A DNA stretch of 27,617 nt from a virus, in the IMG/VR virus record IMGVR_UViG_3300013131_000202, positions 1 through 27,617 of that record. One strand, written 5' to 3'. The first letter of the stretch is position 1. Every line of letters starts with the position of its first letter. The notes under the pieces were generated by a model. That model was not told the origin of the DNA. It saw only the letters and a list, made by a program, of their open reading frames with translations, and made no database searches. The position numbers and the translations under genes are program-made. Below are positions 18,080-27,584 of the stretch, piece after piece.

Positions 18080-18376
18080 ATGTCGACTAGCAGGTATTTC
18101 TTTCAACCTACAATCAATAACAAATTCTATACTACGTCTGACCTGTCGTCTAGAATCTATCGGGCTGTTGACGCTGGAGAAGTACCGTCTAACGTAGTCC
18201 AGTTGGGTTCTAACAAGAGGCTGGATGTTCTCGCATTTGAAGCCTATAACGACGCATCGCTGTGGTGGATAATTGCAGCAGCATCAGGGATAGGCTGGAG
18301 TATGCAACTCACACCAGGCACGTATGTTAGAATTCCATCTGATATAAACACAATCTATGAGCTGATGCGATCATGA
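18080..18376 (+). CDS. gp53: Baseplate wedge protein, gp53/gpX-like LysM-type
   Basis: This 98-aa protein has the compact pattern 'aromatic start, SNKRLDVLAFEAYNDASLWWII, AAASGIG, QLTPGTYVRIPS'. It is the LysM-like fold shared by baseplate wedge gp53 of T4-like phages and gpX-type tail proteins: 'R-D-L-A---Y-D-SLWW-I--AN----P--L-PG--L-IP'. In T4, gp53 (196 aa) clamps wedges to the hub. Here only the LysM-like core is present. Its ATGA overlap with the next gene indicates tight translational coupling to the hub-like protein. Confidence 0.75.
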   Translation: MSTSRYFFQPTINNKFYTTSDLSSRIYRAVDAGEVPSNVVQLGSNKRLDVLAFEAYNDASLWWIIAAASGIGWSMQLTPGTYVRIPSDINTIYELMRS

Positions 18377-21267
18377 GCTTTGGCAGCATTTTTAAAGTAT
18401 CAAGTACAAAACTCGGTGTTTCTTGTAAAAGTCGACTCTATGAGGCCGCCGAAACACTTCGTAACTATCTCTACCTGTCACGGACAAGCAACATCAATGA
18501 TGTAATAATCCAATCAGCTGGCACCGTAGAAATCACAAATAATGCGAGCAAGGAAATAGCCCTACAACAGGAACGCCTGTCGCAGTTGCGTGAGATTTTG
18601 ATTGGGTCGGCGCCTGCACCAAAGGCAGATGTCGAAAGTGCTGCTGACGAGGCAAGCAAAGATTCTGCTGGGAAGAAAAAAGACACAAGCGTACTGGGTG
18701 TTGGATCTGTGCAACTCATAGGACCGTCTGATTTCTACAATGGAATTCTCACAGGCGTGTCAAGCGGTAAAAAGCAAAGTGATATCACCCACATATGCAT
18801 CACTGACACAGGACAATCAAATAATTTTAGCGCTCGTGGAGCTGAATACGTCGCAGTTTTTTCTAACTTGATCCCAGCTGTTGAATTGTCAAAGTGTGTT
18901 CCTTATTTCAACATGCGCCTAATCCAAAACATACCGAATGATGGCAGAGTCAAGATGCCTTTTTTGGTTCTTGAATCATTCCTTGGTGCAACTCGTAAAA
19001 ACCAGCCATCATCATTTCTTGGCGGCACAGACATACCTGATGCAACAATCGTGTCACCAATTGAAAAGCTGAGTTCTAAACTGAACACGACGGTATCAGG
19101 TATGGAATTGTTCCAGTCGCCACAGACGCTAATCAGGCCTAGCATCAACACGTCAGGAAACTACAAGTCAAATAGGGGTATAACAGCATTAGATCCTATG
19201 CAGCCGCTTGCTTCAATCGAGAGCGTCAATTTTGATGTTTCTGCACTAAGCCAGAACTTCATGACAACTAACACTAAAATTGACATTTCCATTGTCTTGC
19301 ATGATAAGTCACGCTTAGCAGAACTTTCACCTCTTGTCTCGCCCGGCGTGTATCCCACAGTCCAGGCAGAAATTGAGTGGGGGTGGTCGCATCCTGATTC
19401 CAATCTGTTCTCTGTCAATCCTTACTCAAAATTTTTAAATGCTCTGCGTAATAAGCAGATTTTCTGCGTCAGTTCGGTCTCATTTAGCAACAGAGACGCA
19501 ACATCTTTGAGCATAAGAATCCAACTAACAGGCTTGGGTGAATACATCGCATCTAGCACTTCGATCTACACGGGTGACTTTGTCTCTTATGAGCTGATTC
19601 GCGCCAAGATGAATCAGCTTTTCACAATCATCGATGAACGTGCAAAAGATGGTGAGCCACCTAAGCAAAAATTTATCGGTGCATACGAGCAAACCGTGTC
19701 ATTAAGTAACTGGGAATCATCTGACAAGTGGATCCTATACGATCATTATCGCAAGCTTACAGACATGATTGATAGCATACAGGGCGGCCAGGGTAGTGTG
19801 TCTGAGCTTGTAGATTTTTACACAAAAGTTTTGAATGGAACGGTTCCAACGACACAACAAGTCGCACCTGTCACTCCTCCCAACGTAGCCGAATATTTGC
19901 GTGACACAATGCGTTTGGCACTATCGGGTGGTTCTATACAGGCGTCACCTTACATCAATGCTGTCTACGGAGGAACGCCAGACACTCCTAGCACTGTAAC
20001 AAATTATCTAGTTGGAATTTTAGATGACATGTTCATTGATGCAGGAAATGTCACTGTAACACAGGCCAAGGGGCCAAGTGAAATTCCGACTGAAGAAGCT
20101 ATCATAGGTCCGTCTATCACATTCGGAGATGCGTTTTATCGATGTTTTACCGTCCCCATGTCATTGACAGATGTTTACGATGAAATCAGAGTCACAACTT
20201 TTGACTTTAATGATCATGCTGGGAAAATGGGAGGAATAAACATCGGTGCGTTCCCATTCATCATACCAGACGTGCTTGACGCACTCATAAAACCCAAAAT
20301 GACTTCACAAAAAGCTGCACAGGAGCTGATTAAGCTCGTGAATAATGCAGCTGCTGTGCCTTATGGTGTAAAAAAAGCATTGATAGCTAAAAGTATTGCA
20401 GAAAAAGAACTTGCTGAAGATGACGCAGCTTCTGGTGACTCAACAAACGCACAACGAGAAGCAATCCAGGCGATATTCGAAGACGAACTTGCAAAGATAT
20501 ATGAAATTAAAGCGCAACAAGGGCTTGGTGTCGGATTCGAGCCTAAATTCACAGTGCCCAGAATCAAAATGCATACCGAAGTTAGCAATGTCATGTCTGG
20601 TGGAAGCATTAAACAGATTCTAAATGTTTTCATTTATGATGATGCCAACACAGGATATCGCGGAACAAACCTAATTTCATCAATTATGCAGCAGGACAGC
20701 GGAATTGTTAGAATCTTTAATACGGGTAAAGAAATTCAAATCCTGAAGTCAGAAAAGACTGCTGGTGATCCGACGTCTGTAGTCTCTCTTGATAGAGCAC
20801 AAGCAAAAAAGATCATAACATCTGCTATACCTACATTGAGGATCGGAACTGAGGGATCCTTGATCACAAATGCAAGTTACAGCTCGTCCGCGGCCGGTGA
20901 CCTTGCAAACATCAACCTACTTCGTGGTATTAAGAATAGCGGCGGTGCGTCAGGTGCTGGAACATTTCCTGGGATTGACGCAGATCTGTTCGTTATTCCC
21001 ACAACTCTAACGATTACGATGGCAGGCATGCCTATAGTGAACAGAGGCCAGACGTACTTCGTAGACTTTGGCACAGGAACGACGCTGGACAATACATACA
21101 CAGTCATGTCTGTCAAACATTCAATGAAATTAGGAAACTTCACAACAACGCTCCTTTTGAATGTTACAAATCAAGGTTCGATCAAGTCTGTAACTTCAAA
21201 GATACAGACAGATTTGAAACTGCTCCAGAAGTACTCCAAGACAAGTCTTCCTGCTGACAAAACGTAA
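18373..21267 (+). CDS. Baseplate hub-like structural protein (gp27/gpD-type C-terminus)
   Basis: This is a 964-aa protein. A middle block near residues 327-345 (VQAEIEWGWSHPDSN) followed by NPYSKFLNALRNKQIF and TSLSIRIQLTGLG is a pattern I have seen in large-phage baseplate proteins. The C-terminus (about 873-950) has PTTLTITMAGMPIVNRGQ, YFVDFGTGTTLDNTYTVMSV, KHSMKLGNFTTTLLLNV. This reproduces the final beta-barrel of hub proteins of the gp27/gpD group, where 'G--Y-V--V-H----G-F-T-L-L' is conserved. It is more than twice the size of T4 gp27 (391 aa), with a charged linker near residues 80-115 and a helical insert near 655-715. The precise role (hub or wedge-hub bridge) is inferred. It overlaps the gp53-like gene by four bases. 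Confidence 0.62.
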   Translation: MSFGSIFKVSSTKLGVSCKSRLYEAAETLRNYLYLSRTSNINDVIIQSAGTVEITNNASKEIALQQERLSQLREILIGSAPAPKADVESAADEASKDSAGKKKDTSVLGVGSVQLIGPSDFYNGILTGVSSGKKQSDITHICITDTGQSNNFSARGAEYVAVFSNLIPAVELSKCVPYFNMRLIQNIPNDGRVKMPFLVLESFLGATRKNQPSSFLGGTDIPDATIVSPIEKLSSKLNTTVSGMELFQSPQTLIRPSINTSGNYKSNRGITALDPMQPLASIESVNFDVSALSQNFMTTNTKIDISIVLHDKSRLAELSPLVSPGVYPTVQAEIEWGWSHPDSNLFSVNPYSKFLNALRNKQIFCVSSVSFSNRDATSLSIRIQLTGLGEYIASSTSIYTGDFVSYELIRAKMNQLFTIIDERAKDGEPPKQKFIGAYEQTVSLSNWESSDKWILYDHYRKLTDMIDSIQGGQGSVSELVDFYTKVLNGTVPTTQQVAPVTPPNVAEYLRDTMRLALSGGSIQASPYINAVYGGTPDTPSTVTNYLVGILDDMFIDAGNVTVTQAKGPSEIPTEEAIIGPSITFGDAFYRCFTVPMSLTDVYDEIRVTTFDFNDHAGKMGGINIGAFPFIIPDVLDALIKPKMTSQKAAQELIKLVNNAAAVPYGVKKALIAKSIAEKELAEDDAASGDSTNAQREAIQAIFEDELAKIYEIKAQQGLGVGFEPKFTVPRIKMHTEVSNVMSGGSIKQILNVFIYDDANTGYRGTNLISSIMQQDSGIVRIFNTGKEIQILKSEKTAGDPTSVVSLDRAQAKKIITSAIPTLRIGTEGSLITNASYSSSAAGDLANINLLRGIKNSGGASGAGTFPGIDADLFVIPTTLTITMAGMPIVNRGQTYFVDFGTGTTLDNTYTVMSVKHSMKLGNFTTTLLLNVTNQGSIKSVTSKIQTDLKLLQKYSKTSLPADKT

Positions 21268-21311: not shown

Positions 21312-21353
21312 ATGATTATGTTGTAAATCGATTCAAGGCGCAGATAATCTAAT

Positions 21354-22523
21354 GTGTCTATATTTCTATCGAGTCGATCAACAGGACTGTCTAAAGGCAT
21401 CATCATCGCAGGTGACGACATCACGGTCACAGATGTCGATGAATGTCCTGAAGGTTCATGGCATCTGGGCGAAAAAGCACACTTCGCACTTGGTAGAGTC
21501 GCTTTAGCAAGATCAATAAATCTTTCTGTCCTTCCGAGCGATCCTAGAATTGAGTGGTGGAAACAGTGGACGCCAACGCCTAGAATTGATCTTGTCTTAA
21601 GTAAGAAAGCTGTTGCAGCACATATTAAGACGCTTATTGACACATGCAAGCGTGTCACAGAAGATTCCTACTATGCGGGTCAATACCAGACTCAAAATCT
21701 CCTGCTTGACTCATTTCAAAGTGCGAATGTTGATTTGAGCCTTCTACGACAGCAAGATGATAATGTCATAGACACCTTCGCGGCAAACACAGAAGGTCAG
21801 TGCGCAAGGATTGAGTACGACAACTACGGATCCTCAACAGGCAGAATGTCCGTCAAGTCAGGTCCCAAGATCTTGACGATGAGCAAGGAGCTTCGACACA
21901 TCTTTCGATCCTCATGGGGAGATGAGGGAACGCTGTTGAGTGTCGATTACAATGCGCTTGAACCTCGTGTCATCATGACACTGATGGGTGCCAAGACGCT
22001 TCCTGCAGACATCTACACGTCGATAGGCGAAAAACTCCAGCTGGCACACGTCAGTCGAAAGACTCTAAAGCTCATGATCCTCGCGATCCTGTATGGGATG
22101 GCAAGAAAGAACTTCATCGTCAAGTTCATGTCTGAACAGGATCCTGATGTTGCGTATGACAGGATCCGAGATAAGTTAGGTGTCAAGGACATCCTCGCGA
22201 GAATCAAGCAGGACATGCATGATGGATTTATCAGAAACCACTTTGGTCGTCCATTAAGTTGTGAGAACGAGAGCCTATATGTCAATCACTTCACACAATC
22301 GACGGCCGTTGATGTCGCCTGTGAGGGTTTCTTAAACCTTGTGAAAGACAATAGCGACATCATTCGACCCATCTTCATCCTACACGATGAGCTGGTCGTA
22401 GATGTCAAAAACTCCGATCTTGAGAAGCTGAGGTCTAGAATCGGATCTGGCATCTACATTCCTAGCCTCGAAACCTCATTTCACGTCACAACAAAGGTGT
22501 TCAATGCAAGAAAGAGTGATTAG
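21354..22523 (+). CDS. polA: Family A DNA polymerase, polymerase domain only, Leu762 type
   Basis: This 389-aa protein carries the family A polymerase motifs in order: TGR-M-S near residues 162-166; motif A VDYNALEPR with D198, E203 and R205; motif B RKTLKLMILAILYGM with R235, K239, L243 and Y247; motif C ILHDELVVDV with H344, D345 and E346. These equal E. coli Pol I R754, K758, position 762, Y766 and the HDE triad. All catalytic residues are present. No 3'-5' or 5'-3' exonuclease domain is attached, and the first 150 residues are a shortened thumb-like region. Position 762 is Leu rather than Phe or Tyr. The start is GTG; an in-frame stop at 21345 leaves no upstream alternative. Downstream genes are replication genes, so this is likely the replicative polymerase with proofreading supplied elsewhere. 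Confidence 0.88.
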   Translation: MSIFLSSRSTGLSKGIIIAGDDITVTDVDECPEGSWHLGEKAHFALGRVALARSINLSVLPSDPRIEWWKQWTPTPRIDLVLSKKAVAAHIKTLIDTCKRVTEDSYYAGQYQTQNLLLDSFQSANVDLSLLRQQDDNVIDTFAANTEGQCARIEYDNYGSSTGRMSVKSGPKILTMSKELRHIFRSSWGDEGTLLSVDYNALEPRVIMTLMGAKTLPADIYTSIGEKLQLAHVSRKTLKLMILAILYGMARKNFIVKFMSEQDPDVAYDRIRDKLGVKDILARIKQDMHDGFIRNHFGRPLSCENESLYVNHFTQSTAVDVACEGFLNLVKDNSDIIRPIFILHDELVVDVKNSDLEKLRSRIGSGIYIPSLETSFHVTTKVFNARKSD

Positions 22524-23079
22524 TAACTTCGAGACATTCCAAAAGATCCTGTCAAAGACCGGAGACCGGTCTGCTGCACTTGAGAGTTTTCTCGAGACAT
22601 ATGGAGAACGCATCGCTGTGTGTCCATCACACAATCTGTCCAAGCGCTCAACTTCAAGTGCAGGTGGTCTCGTCGAGCACGCTCTCCAGACTTTTAGGAT
22701 TGCAAGGAAGTTGGTCGAAGCGACAGGTGTGCAGGTAAGTCCCGAGAGCTTGGCCATAGTTTGTCTTCTTCACGAGGTAGGCAAGATCGGCGACGAGAGC
22801 AGGGACTATTTCGTTCCGCAGACATCGTCATGGCACGTTGAACGTGGGCAGGTCTACACCTACAATCCTGACATTCCCAAGATGACACACCCGCACAGGA
22901 CCCTGTATCTCCTCCAGACGAGTGGGGTTCATCTAACATTGGACGAGTGGATCGCAATCCTCGTGCAGTCAGGTACGTCAAGTGAGGAGAATCGATTCTA
23001 TGCAGGGTGCGAAAATAATCTTGCAGTTGTGCTCCAGAGCGCAATCAGGATGGCAGTGATGAAGGAAGAGGATAATTAG
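22504..23079 (+). CDS. HD-domain-fold protein with altered metal-binding residues
   Basis: This is a 191-aa protein with the HD-phosphohydrolase layout GGLVEHALQTFRIA (H59), then LAIVCLLHEVGKIGD (H90-E91), then YFVPQTSSWHVERGQVY and PHRTLYLLQ...LTLDEWIAI. Phage homologues I recall have a 'LLHD-GK-GD' and later a 'HDG'. Here the HD is HE and the later site is QSG (155-157). It may still bind metal weakly or may have become non-catalytic. T4-like marine phages carry related proteins of unknown role, probably in nucleotide metabolism. The first 20 bases overlap the polymerase gene, and AAGGTG is placed five bases before the ATG, implying coupled translation with the polymerase. Confidence 0.75.
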   Translation: MQERVISNFETFQKILSKTGDRSAALESFLETYGERIAVCPSHNLSKRSTSSAGGLVEHALQTFRIARKLVEATGVQVSPESLAIVCLLHEVGKIGDESRDYFVPQTSSWHVERGQVYTYNPDIPKMTHPHRTLYLLQTSGVHLTLDEWIAILVQSGTSSEENRFYAGCENNLAVVLQSAIRMAVMKEEDN

Positions 23080-23087
23080 AATATAAG

Positions 23088-23681
23088 ATGTCACGCGCAG
23101 AAGGTCGTCTCAACCAGTACTCGTCAAGAGGCGTCGCCGTCCCAGTCGCAGGTGCGATCGGAGGCGGCGATGATGCTGCTCAAAAGATTGGCAGGCCCTA
23201 TGTTCCGAAGCCGTTCAGGAGCATGGGCGGGTTTGAGGGTTCTGCAGATTCCACATTCTCGTACAAATTGGGTCGCCATCACGTCGACGACCGAGATGAC
23301 GCAGGTGACACGTTCAATTTTGACTCCATCGCGACGAGAAAGCTTGCAGGCCCTAGAAAACTGTCAAGAAACGTGAAGATGAAGGGACTTGGCCAGCCTA
23401 ACATGGTTGACTTTGAACCTTACGGTGCCAAGGCGATCATATCGACGGCAGTCCAATATGAGACACTACTCAGGGAATTCACAGACGACCTCCTTCGCGT
23501 GGACTTTGACGTAGACGACGACCTTGAACTCGACGAGTTCTCAGGTGCCGCCGCCATTGCAGGATACACAATTCCTCTAGGTGCTGGACCCGCAAGAAAG
23601 AAAGACTTTTACAAGAAGATGGCAAAACCCTTCGGTGGATCCTACCTACAGGACCCCTCGAAAATTAAGCCAAGACCTTGA
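23088..23681 (+). CDS. Hypothetical protein in the replication cluster
   Basis: A 197-aa protein I do not recognise. The N-terminal 100 residues are Gly/Arg/Asp-rich and look disordered. Residues about 110-160 form a compact part (YGAKAIISTAVQYETLLREF) followed by a strongly acidic stretch (about 138-156, VDFDVDDDLELDEF). The C-terminus is basic (ARKKDFYKKMAKPFG). No membrane segment, Cys or catalytic motif stands out. It starts nine bases after the HD-type gene in a head-to-tail run and is followed by a hairpin, so it is the last gene of that unit. The mixed acidic/basic layout suggests a protein-protein or DNA-associated accessory, but this is only a guess. Confidence 0.6.
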   Translation: MSRAEGRLNQYSSRGVAVPVAGAIGGGDDAAQKIGRPYVPKPFRSMGGFEGSADSTFSYKLGRHHVDDRDDAGDTFNFDSIATRKLAGPRKLSRNVKMKGLGQPNMVDFEPYGAKAIISTAVQYETLLREFTDDLLRVDFDVDDDLELDEFSGAAAIAGYTIPLGAGPARKKDFYKKMAKPFGGSYLQDPSKIKPRP

Positions 23682-23818: not shown

Positions 23819-24637
23819 ATGGCAATCAATTTTGACGCAATTCGCAAGAAGCTTGACAATCTCTCGGGTAATAACAAGAAGAGCTCGGCATCCTGGAAGC
23901 CCAAGGAGGGCGAGGAGTACACGGTTCGACTTCTCTCTTTCCCAAGCAACGACGGTCAGCCCTTCAAGGAGCTCTGGTTCTACTACAACATCGGTAACAA
24001 CCCAGGCCTCCTTGCCCCTTACCAGTACGGCAAGGCAGATCCTATCCAGGACCTGATCAACAAGCTTCGCGATGAGGGGACCAAGGAGTCCTACGAGCTT
24101 GCCAAGAAGCTCTACCCGAAGATGCGTTGCTACGCTCCCGTCATCGTTCGAGGCGAGGAGGACAAGGGTGTCCAGCTCTGGGCATTCGGCAAGCAGGTCT
24201 ACCAGTCGCTCCTCGCGATCATGGTCGACGAGGACTACGGTGACATCACCGATCCTGAGAGTGGTCGTGACGTGAAGGTCCGTTGCTTCAAGCCTAACGG
24301 CAAGAAGTACACTGAGACCGAGGTCATGCCTCGAGGCAAGGCATCGCCACTCAACACCAACCAGGCAACCGCAAAGACCTGGCTCAGCAATATCCCAGAC
24401 GTGTCCAAGCTCTATGAGCTCAAGTCGCCTGATGAGCTTAGCAAGATCGTCAATGATTGGATCAATGGCGGCATGCAGGACGGAGACGGGACGCCTCGCG
24501 GTGGGACGACCACACAGCTCACTACTACGACTGACGATGAGGACGATGCTCCTCCTGCAAAGACTGCCACGAAGCCTGCAGGAAATAAGTCGTACAAGTC
24601 TATCGATGATGCATTCTCAGACTTGATGGACGACTAA
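23819..24637 (+). CDS. gp32: Single-stranded DNA-binding protein, gp32-like
   Basis: This 272-aa protein is close to T4 gp32 (301 aa). The N-terminus MAINFDAIRKKLDNLSGNNKKSSASWKP carries a basic 'KKSS' patch like the LAST motif used for cooperative binding. Residues 33-130 look like the OB-fold core (EYTVRLLSFP, KELWFYYNIG, MRCYAPVIV, VQLWAFGKQVY). The C-terminus is a Thr/Asp-rich linker ending in an acidic tail, SIDDAFSDLMDD, the usual partner-binding tail. Only Cys104 and Cys156 occur, so the T4-type zinc site is missing. Codons are strongly C/G-ending (AAG Lys almost only), fitting high expression. It coats ssDNA and works with UvsX, the polymerase and the helicase encoded around it. It sits between two hairpins, which suggests separate expression. 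Confidence 0.93.
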   Translation: MAINFDAIRKKLDNLSGNNKKSSASWKPKEGEEYTVRLLSFPSNDGQPFKELWFYYNIGNNPGLLAPYQYGKADPIQDLINKLRDEGTKESYELAKKLYPKMRCYAPVIVRGEEDKGVQLWAFGKQVYQSLLAIMVDEDYGDITDPESGRDVKVRCFKPNGKKYTETEVMPRGKASPLNTNQATAKTWLSNIPDVSKLYELKSPDELSKIVNDWINGGMQDGDGTPRGGTTTQLTTTTDDEDDAPPAKTATKPAGNKSYKSIDDAFSDLMDD

Positions 24638-24701: not shown

Positions 24702-25853
24702 ATGGCAAGAGCCACAAAAGAAAAACGCGGTGATGAAGCAACAGGCGACTTTACCGCTGAGTTGATCTCATCACTAAACAAGGAGAATGGATCGAGGATT
24801 GCCTACAACCTGGCAGAGGATGAGTCTCCCACACACGTGAAGCGCTGGATCTCAACTGGATCGACATTGCTTGACTACATCGTGGCAAATCGTCGAAATG
24901 GCGGCCTCCCAGAGGGTCGAATCATCGAGATCTTTGGACCTCCATCGATCGGCAAGAGCCACATCGCAACACAGATCGCTCGAAGCACACAGCAGATGGG
25001 TGGCATCTGTGTCTACATTGACACGGAGAATGCAACTTCTGTTGAGAACCTCCAGGCATTGGGTGTCGATGTCACCAAGCGATTTGTCTACGTCGACACT
25101 CACTGCACCGAAGAGGTCTTTGACGTCGCTGAGAAGACGATCGTCAAGGCAAAGGCGATGCAGAAGAACGTCCCAATCACCATCATCTGGGACAGCGTCG
25201 CAGCATCGTCTCCCAAGGCGGAGCTTCTGGGTGACTATGACAAGGAGACGATCGGTCTCCAGGCCCGAGCGATCTCAAAGGGTATGCGCAAGATCACAGG
25301 AGTCATCGGCGATCAGTCTGTGCTTATGATCTGCCTAAACCAGATCCGCACGAAGATCGGCGTCCTACACGGCGATCCAATGACGGTCCCAGGAGGAATG
25401 GCGATCCCGTTCCACGCATCGACTCGCATCAAGTTGGGTGCAGGCCAGCAGATCCAGAACAAGAACGGTGACATCATCGGCATCAATGTGTCGGCAAAGA
25501 CAGTCAAGAATAAAGTCGCACCGCCGTTCAGGACTGCAAATTTCCAGATTCACTTTGGAAAGGGCATCGTAGAGCATGAGGAGATCTTCGACGTCCTCCG
25601 CGAGGCCGGAGAGCGTGAGATCAATGGAAAGCTTATCTGTGTGTCAGGCACGACACAGTGGAAGGTCTTCACGGTGACCGACGCGATCGAAGGGCGACCT
25701 ATCATCGAGAAGAAGTTCTACAAGTCGGAGTTCGGAGACATGCTCAAGAACCCTGACTACAAGGAGTACCTTGATGACTTGATCGAGGCCGTCATGGTGC
25801 GGTCGAAGGATGATCCTGTGACCACGTCTGACGAGGAAGAGGAGTCTGAGTGA
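24702..25853 (+). CDS. uvsX: UvsX-like RecA-family recombinase
   Basis: This is a 383-aa protein; T4 UvsX has 391. It has Walker A GPPSIGKS (79-86), the catalytic glutamate in YIDTEN (E109), Walker B TIIWDS (D164), and the loop 2 region with LNQIRTKIGVLHGDP followed by a VPGGMAIPFHAS segment, typical of the RecA/UvsX ATPase core. The acidic C-terminus (DEEEESE) is a likely protein-contact tail. It should form filaments on ssDNA with the gp32-like protein and drive strand exchange and recombination-primed replication. The AGGAGA ribosome-binding site precedes the ATG. Its stop codon overlaps the next gene's ATG (TGATG). Confidence 0.94.
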   Translation: MARATKEKRGDEATGDFTAELISSLNKENGSRIAYNLAEDESPTHVKRWISTGSTLLDYIVANRRNGGLPEGRIIEIFGPPSIGKSHIATQIARSTQQMGGICVYIDTENATSVENLQALGVDVTKRFVYVDTHCTEEVFDVAEKTIVKAKAMQKNVPITIIWDSVAASSPKAELLGDYDKETIGLQARAISKGMRKITGVIGDQSVLMICLNQIRTKIGVLHGDPMTVPGGMAIPFHASTRIKLGAGQQIQNKNGDIIGINVSAKTVKNKVAPPFRTANFQIHFGKGIVEHEEIFDVLREAGEREINGKLICVSGTTQWKVFTVTDAIEGRPIIEKKFYKSEFGDMLKNPDYKEYLDDLIEAVMVRSKDDPVTTSDEEEESE

Positions 25854-26809
25854 TGTCAGGCGAAGGTTGCGTCCTTCTTTTGGATGGACTTAATCTTTTT
25901 CTTCGACATTTTTCGGCAAATCCTGCGATGGGTTCAAATGGAAACCACGTCGGAGGAATCATCGGCTTTCTGTATGACATGAATTCAATTGTGCAGCGAT
26001 TTAAGCCGCACAAGGCCTATGTCGTCTGGGAAGGCGGTGGTTCCGCCCGGCGTCGTTCAATATTCCCAGAATACAAGGCACACCGGAGGCCCGAGCGACT
26101 GAACAGGATCTACGCAGACGAGATTAAGACGACAGTGTCTGACCACGACAACCAGATCAAGGACATTGTTGCCCTGCTCAAGTTGCTTCCGGTGAACCAG
26201 CTCTACGTTCCTGACTGCGAGGCTGATGATGTCATTGCCTACATCAGCAGGTATGAGCATCCGCAAGACCTCAAGGTGATCCTATCATCTGACAAGGACT
26301 ACTATCAGCTCGTGTCAGACAAGACAGTGATCTACTCACCCACGTCTAAGAAGATCATCCAAATCCAGGATGTGATTGACAGATTCGGCATCCACCCAAA
26401 TAACTTTGCACTGGCAAAGGCGGTGTGTGGGGATTCATCAGACAACATCCCAGGAATTTCGGGTGTTAAGTTTAAAACCCTATCTAAACGATTTTCAAGT
26501 CTAACAGACGAAACTCCAGTTATGCTGGACGATTTCTTTTTGGCGGCTCGACAAGCTGCGGCGAACTCTACGGTTAAGGCACACAAGCAGATTGTTGACA
26601 ATGTCGACACGATCCGCAGGAACTGGCAGCTCGTCCACCTCGACACGGGAATCCTTGCAGGCTCGCAGATTAAGAGAATACAAGATCTCTGTGCGGGTTG
26701 TAAGACGAACAGAGACAAGATAGGATTCATACGACACCTTCTAAAACTAGGCATCCAGACATTTAACGTGGATCTGCTTTTCTACACTCTCAGTCACATT
26801 GGAGCATAA
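25853..26809 (+). CDS. rnh: 5'-3' exonuclease / flap endonuclease, RNase H-like
   Basis: This 318-aa protein (T4 RNase H has 305) has the metal-binding acidic residues of the FEN/5'-nuclease family: LLLDGLNLFLR (D11), YVVWEGGG (E60) with SARRRSIFPEYKAHR, PDCEADDVIAY (D121, E123, D125, D126), LSSDKDYYQL (D147, D149) and GDSSDNIPGISGV (D194, D197) followed by the helix-hairpin-helix-like turn. It should remove RNA primers and flaps from lagging-strand fragments; a family A polymerase without its own 5' nuclease domain needs this in trans. GTG 25850 is also in frame; ATG 25853 in the TGATG overlap with uvsX is preferred. Confidence 0.9.
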   Translation: MSGEGCVLLLDGLNLFLRHFSANPAMGSNGNHVGGIIGFLYDMNSIVQRFKPHKAYVVWEGGGSARRRSIFPEYKAHRRPERLNRIYADEIKTTVSDHDNQIKDIVALLKLLPVNQLYVPDCEADDVIAYISRYEHPQDLKVILSSDKDYYQLVSDKTVIYSPTSKKIIQIQDVIDRFGIHPNNFALAKAVCGDSSDNIPGISGVKFKTLSKRFSSLTDETPVMLDDFFLAARQAAANSTVKAHKQIVDNVDTIRRNWQLVHLDTGILAGSQIKRIQDLCAGCKTNRDKIGFIRHLLKLGIQTFNVDLLFYTLSHIGA

Positions 26810-26810
26810 C

Positions 26811-27584
26811 GTGTCGCAAGGCACAGCACACTTTAGTCAATACGGCAAGTCGTTCCAGGAAAAGGTCTTCCAAGGTCTCCTGACAGATAGAGCTTGGGCA
26901 ACTCAGATGACAGAGATCATGACACCTGCATACTTCGACCTGAAGTACTTGCAGTACCTTTGCAAGTCATATTTCTCATATCACCAGAAGTACAAGGACT
27001 TTCCAACACTTCCTCTTCTGATCACTATCATACGTGACGACCTCAAGGAGGGCAAGGACACAATCCTTAGAGACCAGATTGTCGAATTCCTGCAGCGAAT
27101 TCGTGTCAACCCAGACATGGGCGATCTTCAGTTTGTCAAGGACAAGTCGCTTGACTTCTGCAAGAAGCAGGCGATGCGCGAGGCCCTTGAGAAGGCCGTT
27201 GAGATGATCGCGACAGACAACATCGACTCTGTTGTCGATCTCATGAAGAATGCCCTTGCAGCGGGCACTCCTGCAGCAATTGGTCATGACTTCTTCGAGG
27301 ACACCGAGGCGCGATTTGTCAAGACGCGACGTCAGACGTGCCCAACAGGGCTTCCTCAAATTGACGCACAGGACATTCTCAACGGCGGACTCGGTCGAGG
27401 TGAGTTAGGCGTTGTCATCGCCCCGACGGGTGTTGGTAAATGCACATCGGGTGACGCTTATATAACGATCAGGACTATGGAGATCGTTATCAAAGGCACA
27501 AGATACAAAGCATGGGATAAAGTTAGAACAAAGCGAGGTCTTGTCTACGCAAGAGACGTTATCGAGTCAGACGAGCTTGCCTAA
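26811..27584 (+). CDS. gp41: gp41-like replicative helicase, N-terminal part, interrupted by an intein (partial)
   Basis: The 210 residues before the intein match a DnaB/gp41 helicase: HFSQYGKSFQEKVFQGLL and YFDLKYLQYLCKSYFSYHQKY in the N-terminal domain, a linker with helical repeats, then CPTGLPQIDAQDILNGGLGRGELGVVIAPTGVGK, the start of the RecA-like core ending at the Walker A lysine. GTG 26811 has GGAG six bases upstream; a TTG at 26799 is also in frame, but I reject it. The next codon is Cys in place of the expected Ser/Thr and begins the intein. The frame stops at 27582-27584 after 47 intein residues. The rest of the helicase (Walker B onward) lies outside the window. The helicase is likely to be made by splicing. 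Confidence 0.88.
   Translation: MSQGTAHFSQYGKSFQEKVFQGLLTDRAWATQMTEIMTPAYFDLKYLQYLCKSYFSYHQKYKDFPTLPLLITIIRDDLKEGKDTILRDQIVEFLQRIRVNPDMGDLQFVKDKSLDFCKKQAMREALEKAVEMIATDNIDSVVDLMKNALAAGTPAAIGHDFFEDTEARFVKTRRQTCPTGLPQIDAQDILNGGLGRGELGVVIAPTGVGKCTSGDAYITIRTMEIVIKGTRYKAWDKVRTKRGLVYARDVIESDELA
27441..27581 (+). mobile_element. N-terminal intein segment inside the gp41 Walker A motif
   Basis: Directly after GVGK the 47 residues begin CTSGDAYITIRTM and continue 'AWDKVRTKRGLVYARDVIESDEL'. This is the layout of intein block A (Cys, Gly-Asp, then beta strands) and the following strand block (charged, 'G-V-A-D-I--D'). Walker A of DnaB-type helicases is a known intein site, with a Cys or Ser/Thr as first residue. 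The intein ends here by a stop codon, with no block B (T--H) or C-terminal blocks within the frame. This suggests a split intein or a frame disruption. Confidence 0.82.

Follow-up and report, generated by a model that had tools for sequence, protein, structure and literature searches.

A small family A DNA polymerase, probably a second polymerase of the divPolA1 type, in the replication cassette of a T4-like aquatic phage

The window analyzed here, a 27,617-nucleotide stretch of viral DNA (positions 1 to 27,617 of the IMG/VR record IMGVR_UViG_3300013131_000202), encodes a family A DNA polymerase of 389 amino acids (21354..22523, + strand). With a probability of about two in three, this protein is a small second polymerase of the divPolA1 type, encoded by a T4-like aquatic myophage and acting as a Pol I-like gap filler; very probably, it is not the main replicase of the phage. 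The name divPolA1 was given by Yutin et al. 2024 to a divergent, exonuclease-dead PolA that is encoded besides the regular polymerase (PMC11348598). The window polymerase would then be one of the second polymerases of a kind that is widespread and has been described before, the newer point being that the gene next to it may encode a proofreading nuclease of an unexpected type, and what had looked like a lone error-prone polymerase would become part of a two-polymerase replisome, with a DnaE-type replicase and a split Pol I.

The polymerase ORF starts with GTG at position 21354 and is preceded, six bases ahead, by an in-frame TAA (21345-21347), which rules out an N-terminal fusion. The gene on the 5' side (18373-21267; 964 aa, without a Pfam match) ends 86 bp before the polymerase and encodes a baseplate-region protein; an exonuclease fused to the polymerase or encoded directly upstream was therefore rejected. 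The 389-aa protein matches PF00476 (DNA_pol_A) above the gathering score (E = 5.5e-9) and PHROG 17 'DNA polymerase' (5e-18). Single-sequence searches against phage genomes and the PDB gave weak Pol I matches or none, so that profiles were needed, and a profile built from 37 relatives matched solved Pol I chains at 5e-16. The Pol I motif set is present, including the two catalytic aspartates and the equivalents of R754, K758 and Y766: motif A (DYNALEPR; 21945..21968, + strand) with D198 and the steric-gate E203, motif B (RKTLKLMILAILYG; 22056..22097, +), and motif C (HDE, H344-D345-E346; 22383..22391, +). The residues are those given in the preliminary description, which had called all three motifs intact, as borne out by Pfam, the 37-row alignment and the structural model. 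In this alignment, D198, R235, K239, Y247, H344 and D345 are invariant, and E203, which corresponds to the ribonucleotide-excluding glutamate of Pol I, is retained in at least 90% of the rows. The assignment of leucine to position 762 holds too: the profile alignment pairs L243 (codon 22080-22082) with the motif B phenylalanine of Pol I, which is F762 in the E. coli enzyme. Comparison with the 96%-identical copy in the relative L002 gives a dN/dS of about 0.017/0.184 = 0.09, which indicates that the gene is under purifying selection.

The AlphaFold2 model derived from the 37-row alignment (mean pLDDT 93) has the predicted palm and fingers of the right-hand fold of Pol I. It superposes on Taq 304-829 with Z 22.5 and on Klenow 351-927 with Z of about 21 (VIA-align 2), and nearly the whole length of the 389 aa is spanned. 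Residue 1 of the model is aligned to Klenow 351 and Taq 304, and its far end to 927 and 829, respectively. Thus, the modeled protein appears to start at the point that corresponds to the beginning of the Pol I exonuclease domain, with only a short stub in place of the 3'-5' exonuclease domain (approximately residues 1-80, 21354..21593, + strand; the boundary is approximate). The protein has no exonuclease Pfam match, and conservation of the acidic residues ahead of position 156 does not exceed 73% of the alignment rows. The absence of a proofreading domain, within the 389 aa or fused upstream, is accordingly upheld.

The window polymerase and its neighbor genes were used to scan a collection of viral contigs, which yielded 83 non-redundant relatives with lengths of 250 residues or more. 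Nearly all of these are 350-470 aa long, the few shorter ones stop at a contig edge, and none of the 83 carries a fused exonuclease domain. Both catalytic aspartates and the equivalents of K758 and Q849 are invariant, those of R754 and Y766 nearly so, and the position of E203 (E710 in Pol I) is glutamate in 80 of the 83 proteins. The motif C glutamate, at the position of E346, is retained in 15 relatives and replaced with alanine in 62. Residue 762 is most often leucine (51 proteins), followed by isoleucine (21), methionine (10) and phenylalanine (1), and switches among leucine, isoleucine and methionine at least 11 times across the family tree.

Judging by these sequences, Leu762 is not a lineage marker in the family of the window polymerase, nor is position 762 a lifestyle marker. 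The preliminary description had associated the protein with the Leu762 polymerases of uncultured marine viruses and, through them, with slower or temperate replication. The Leu762 groups I and II of the virioplankton do share with the window family the leucine at position 762 and the origin from aquatic phages; however, their characterized members are longer, at 564-760 aa, and their genes adjoin those for SNF2, RecB and UvrD helicases, without RNR (PMC6302109; PMC9069017), in contrast to the DnaB, UvsX, FEN and gp32 genes of the window family, with RNR next in L002. Given these different neighbors and the repeated changes at the position itself, the proposed affiliation fails. Neither did the temperate link find support: the contigs of 16 relatives encode no tyrosine integrase, so that nothing points to temperate life. 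Furthermore, a Taq polymerase with a Phe-to-Leu replacement at the 762 equivalent is cited in PMC6302109 as a slower, more accurate enzyme, so that Leu762 alone does not imply an error-prone polymerase.

A regular polymerase is encoded by most of the relatives with sufficiently long contigs. A DnaE-type polymerase III alpha subunit (PF07733; about 1,190-1,226 aa) is present in 13 of the 16 relatives' contigs, and in the three exceptions, G008, G011 and G015, the contig edge lies 7 to 17 kb from the PolA gene. Two more sets of contigs contained PF07733 in 8 of 17 and 5 of 11 cases, respectively, with two contigs counted twice; across the relatives, these family C polymerases are DnaE-type, PHP-bearing proteins of ~1,190-1,270 aa. 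In the contigs that contain both genes, the distance from PolA to the DnaE-type gene is 18-45 kb in the direction of transcription, whereas the window ends 5 kb after the PolA gene and so could not show a DnaE-type gene. One member of the well-supported 12-row clade that includes the window, G034, has a PF07733 polymerase split by inteins. In the gene in question (L347 12733-16381), one intein interrupts the PHP part, and a second one lies directly ahead of the active-site PDIDSD motif. The 16 contigs encode no second PF00476 polymerase, no family A exonuclease (PF01612), and no family B polymerase or exonuclease (PF00136, PF03104). The family C enzyme of G001 matches the DnaE proteins of Mycobacterium tuberculosis and Thermus and contains a PHP domain (PF02811, 3.5e-27), in which the His, Asp, Glu and Cys ligand positions line up, except for one outside the aligned stretch. 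PHP nucleases proofread in M. tuberculosis (PMC5636811). The dilemma posed in the preliminary description, namely, that the polymerase is either proofread in trans or error-prone, presupposes a main polymerase, which the separate DnaE-type replicase with a PHP domain in the relatives makes doubtful; its other part, an exonuclease acting in trans, is possible, with a candidate discussed below.

The published divPolA1 proteins come from 14 genomes of 155-190 kb and combine an intact palm with a truncated thumb and an inactivated exonuclease, and each of these genomes also encodes, at another location, a regular family A, B or C polymerase (PMC11348598). In Flavobacterium phage immuto, gp001 is a PolA of 441 aa, followed by ssb, a recombinase, a 5'-3' exonuclease, DnaB and RNR, and a second, full-length PolA is encoded by gp199 (777 aa). 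The window polymerase and its relatives resemble the immuto divPolA1 in that all are short PolA proteins with an intact palm and an exonuclease that is dead or truncated, and in that the cassette order matches that of gp001-gp007, in T4-like phages of 155-190 kb; the regular polymerase that accompanies divPolA1 in immuto has its counterpart in most of the long relatives. The motifs differ: the window family has L, I or M at position 762 and HD(E/A/S) in motif C, whereas the immuto protein has F762, YDA and a histidine in place of E710. The main polymerase differs as well, being of family C in the relatives of the window and of family A in immuto. Membership in divPolA1 is assigned mainly on architecture and synteny; the sequence link between the window family and the immuto protein is weak (hhalign 1e-4) and no better than that to regular PolA. 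The fam2 profile matches immuto-type proteins at 6e-9 to 6e-6, with Microcystis phage Mel-JY01 as a bridge. With this assignment, divPolA1 would expand from 14 published genomes to over 80 distinct proteins encoded on environmental phage contigs. In Mel-JY01, a cultured cyanophage, an unannotated divPolA1-like gene is located at L163 7814-9040, and its product has F762, YDA in motif C and a histidine at the E710 position.

Nearly all the relatives share a gene order that runs from baseplate to polymerase, HD protein, a conserved protein, a gp32-like SSB, UvsX, FEN and DnaB. In the window, all on the + strand, the conserved cassette protein (23088..23681) has no Pfam match, although its position is kept in the relatives; it is followed by the gp32-like single-strand DNA-binding protein (23819..24637; PF08804 3e-10, PHROG 1192 3.8e-23), the UvsX/RecA-like recombinase (24702..25853; PHROG 97 1e-70, PF00154), a stand-alone 5'-3' exonuclease that resembles FEN and T4 RNase H and corresponds to the 5' nuclease half of Pol I (25850..26809; PF02739 2.4e-29, PF01367), and the 5' part of a DnaB-like replicative helicase gene (26799..27584; PHROG 19 4e-18). 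In L002, the RNR gene comes next after DnaB. Some lineages have an extra gene of ~180-200 aa, without a Pfam match, located after the polymerase and ahead of the HD or DnaQ gene (L069 7481-8083, L078 7062-7601, L061 7304-7888).

From this gene content, we infer the biochemical activity and gap-filling role of the window polymerase. The main replication of the phage would be performed by a DnaE-type family C polymerase encoded farther along the genome, past the end of the window. The divPolA1 protein, with its palm and fingers active site intact and its proofreading domain lost, would fill short gaps, both on the lagging strand after primer removal and in recombination intermediates, in partnership with three other products of the cassette, namely, the stand-alone FEN nuclease, gp32 and UvsX. 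DivPolA1 and FEN together would amount to a Pol I split into separate genes, an analogue of the bacterial Pol I that works beside Pol III. The likeness to bacterial Pol I consists in the palm and fingers fold and, with the separate FEN counted in, two of the three Pol I activities; the differences are the distribution of these functions over two genes and the lack of a 3'-5' exonuclease. A precedent named in the preliminary description, Rhodothermus phage RM378, also is a T4-like phage with the polymerase (gp92, PF00136) and the exonuclease (gp24, PF03104) in separate genes. The statement about the separate genes was right; however, both proteins belong to family B, unlike the window polymerase, so that RM378 was rejected as a homologous split polymerase and sets no precedent for the splitting of a family A polymerase.

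The constant presence of UvsX in the cassette, together with the missing proofreading domain, is also consistent with a recombination-coupled or translesion polymerase that would extend the D-loops made by UvsX and would be damage-tolerant, its low fidelity being a trait and not a flaw. Human Pol nu and Pol theta, family A enzymes without proofreading that function in translesion synthesis and end joining, are among the closest solved sequences after Aquifex Pol I. However, FEN and DnaB are as constant in the cassette as UvsX, and bacterial Pol I matches at least equally well; we regard this role as possible yet doubtful.

The gene that follows the polymerase, with an overlap of 20 bp, encodes an HD-domain protein of 191 aa (22504..23079, + strand; PF01966 4.3e-5), a candidate 3'-5' nuclease. 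Its AlphaFold2 model (pLDDT 94) matches YhaM (9h3f) best, with Z 17.8 over 171 residues, whereas the second-best match reaches 9.3, and CBF1/YhaM is its only convincing PDB profile match, albeit a weak one by sequence (E 0.0065). YhaM is a 3'-5' exonuclease that acts on RNA and also on single-stranded DNA (PMC11347170). In one lineage (L077, L317 and L324) and independently in another (L112), a DnaQ-like exonuclease occupies the slot of the HD gene; the two slot DnaQ proteins are dissimilar, and the tree requires two separate exchanges. Among the 22 genomes that have the polymerase slot on the contig and were screened for both genes, 15 encode only the HD protein, 6 only DnaQ, none both, and one neither, an exclusion with a Fisher p of 9e-5, although the genomes are not independent and the 15:6 split amounts to two evolutionary events. 

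The exchange of HD for DnaQ suggests that the HD protein may be a nuclease that proofreads for either divPolA1 or the DnaE replicase, and the slot is a concrete candidate source of proofreading. Nevertheless, several observations speak against a YhaM-type exonuclease that proofreads in trans and was twice exchanged for a DnaQ-type enzyme. Although the HD-domain fold is the same over the 171 residues, the window protein lacks the N-terminal OB domain of YhaM, its HD dyad reads HE, and 14 of 36 relatives lack H59, whereas the D193A mutation abolishes the activity of YhaM (PMC11347170). In immuto-type genomes, the HD gene does not adjoin that of the polymerase, and the regular PolA contains an exonuclease domain of its own. 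In G013, where the slot is off the contig, DnaQ is encoded elsewhere even though the near relatives have the HD protein. Finally, a proofreader in the slot could serve the DnaE replicase instead of divPolA1. In view of both the fold and these counterarguments, such a trans proofreader seems unlikely, and the wider proposal, in which the YhaM-fold protein proofreads for the replisome, that is, for divPolA1, the DnaE-type polymerase or both, with two replacements by DnaQ, is slightly less probable still. If correct, it would add a third chemistry of trans proofreading to those of the DEDD and PHP nucleases; our literature search found no paper linking YhaM or HD proteins with phage proofreading.

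The possibility that the window polymerase is the only, replicative polymerase, proofread in trans by another protein of the phage or the host, draws on its position at the head of a full cassette with gp32, UvsX, FEN and DnaB, and on three long relatives, G024 (206 kb), G031 (68 kb) and G039 (37 kb), in which the queries used, including Pfam searches of the long ORFs, found no regular polymerase even though each contig includes the polymerase gene and extends past it by more than 25 kb. These three contigs also weaken the assignment as a second polymerase, as does the loss of the motif C glutamate in most of the relatives. However, the full-length family C polymerases in most of the sufficiently long relatives, including the clade of the window itself, and the second polymerase in all published divPolA1 genomes make a sole replicase quite improbable. 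In the T4-like G024 (L330-L340), divPolA1 lies at the contig end, and the HD protein and DnaQ, like the regular polymerase, were not found. A decaying, non-catalytic remnant kept for binding, which the loss of the motif C glutamate in most relatives and of the exonuclease might bring to mind, is highly improbable given the purifying selection and the invariant or nearly invariant catalytic aspartates and R754, K758 and Y766 equivalents in 83 divergent proteins.

Several genes of the window and its relatives are interrupted. In the window, the dnaB gene breaks off directly after the Walker A motif GVGK, where positions 27400-27584 encode an intein-like N-terminus (CTSGDAYITIRT...); the dnaB gene of the near-identical relative L002 is uninterrupted. 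The uvsX genes of L090, L096, L280 and L291 and the dnaE gene of G041 are in separated pieces, probably, due to inteins or introns. The T4-like portal gene gp20 contains an intein with an HNH endonuclease, and the RNR gene contains another intein (L335 12960-16196 in G024; L345 16646-19999 in G039).
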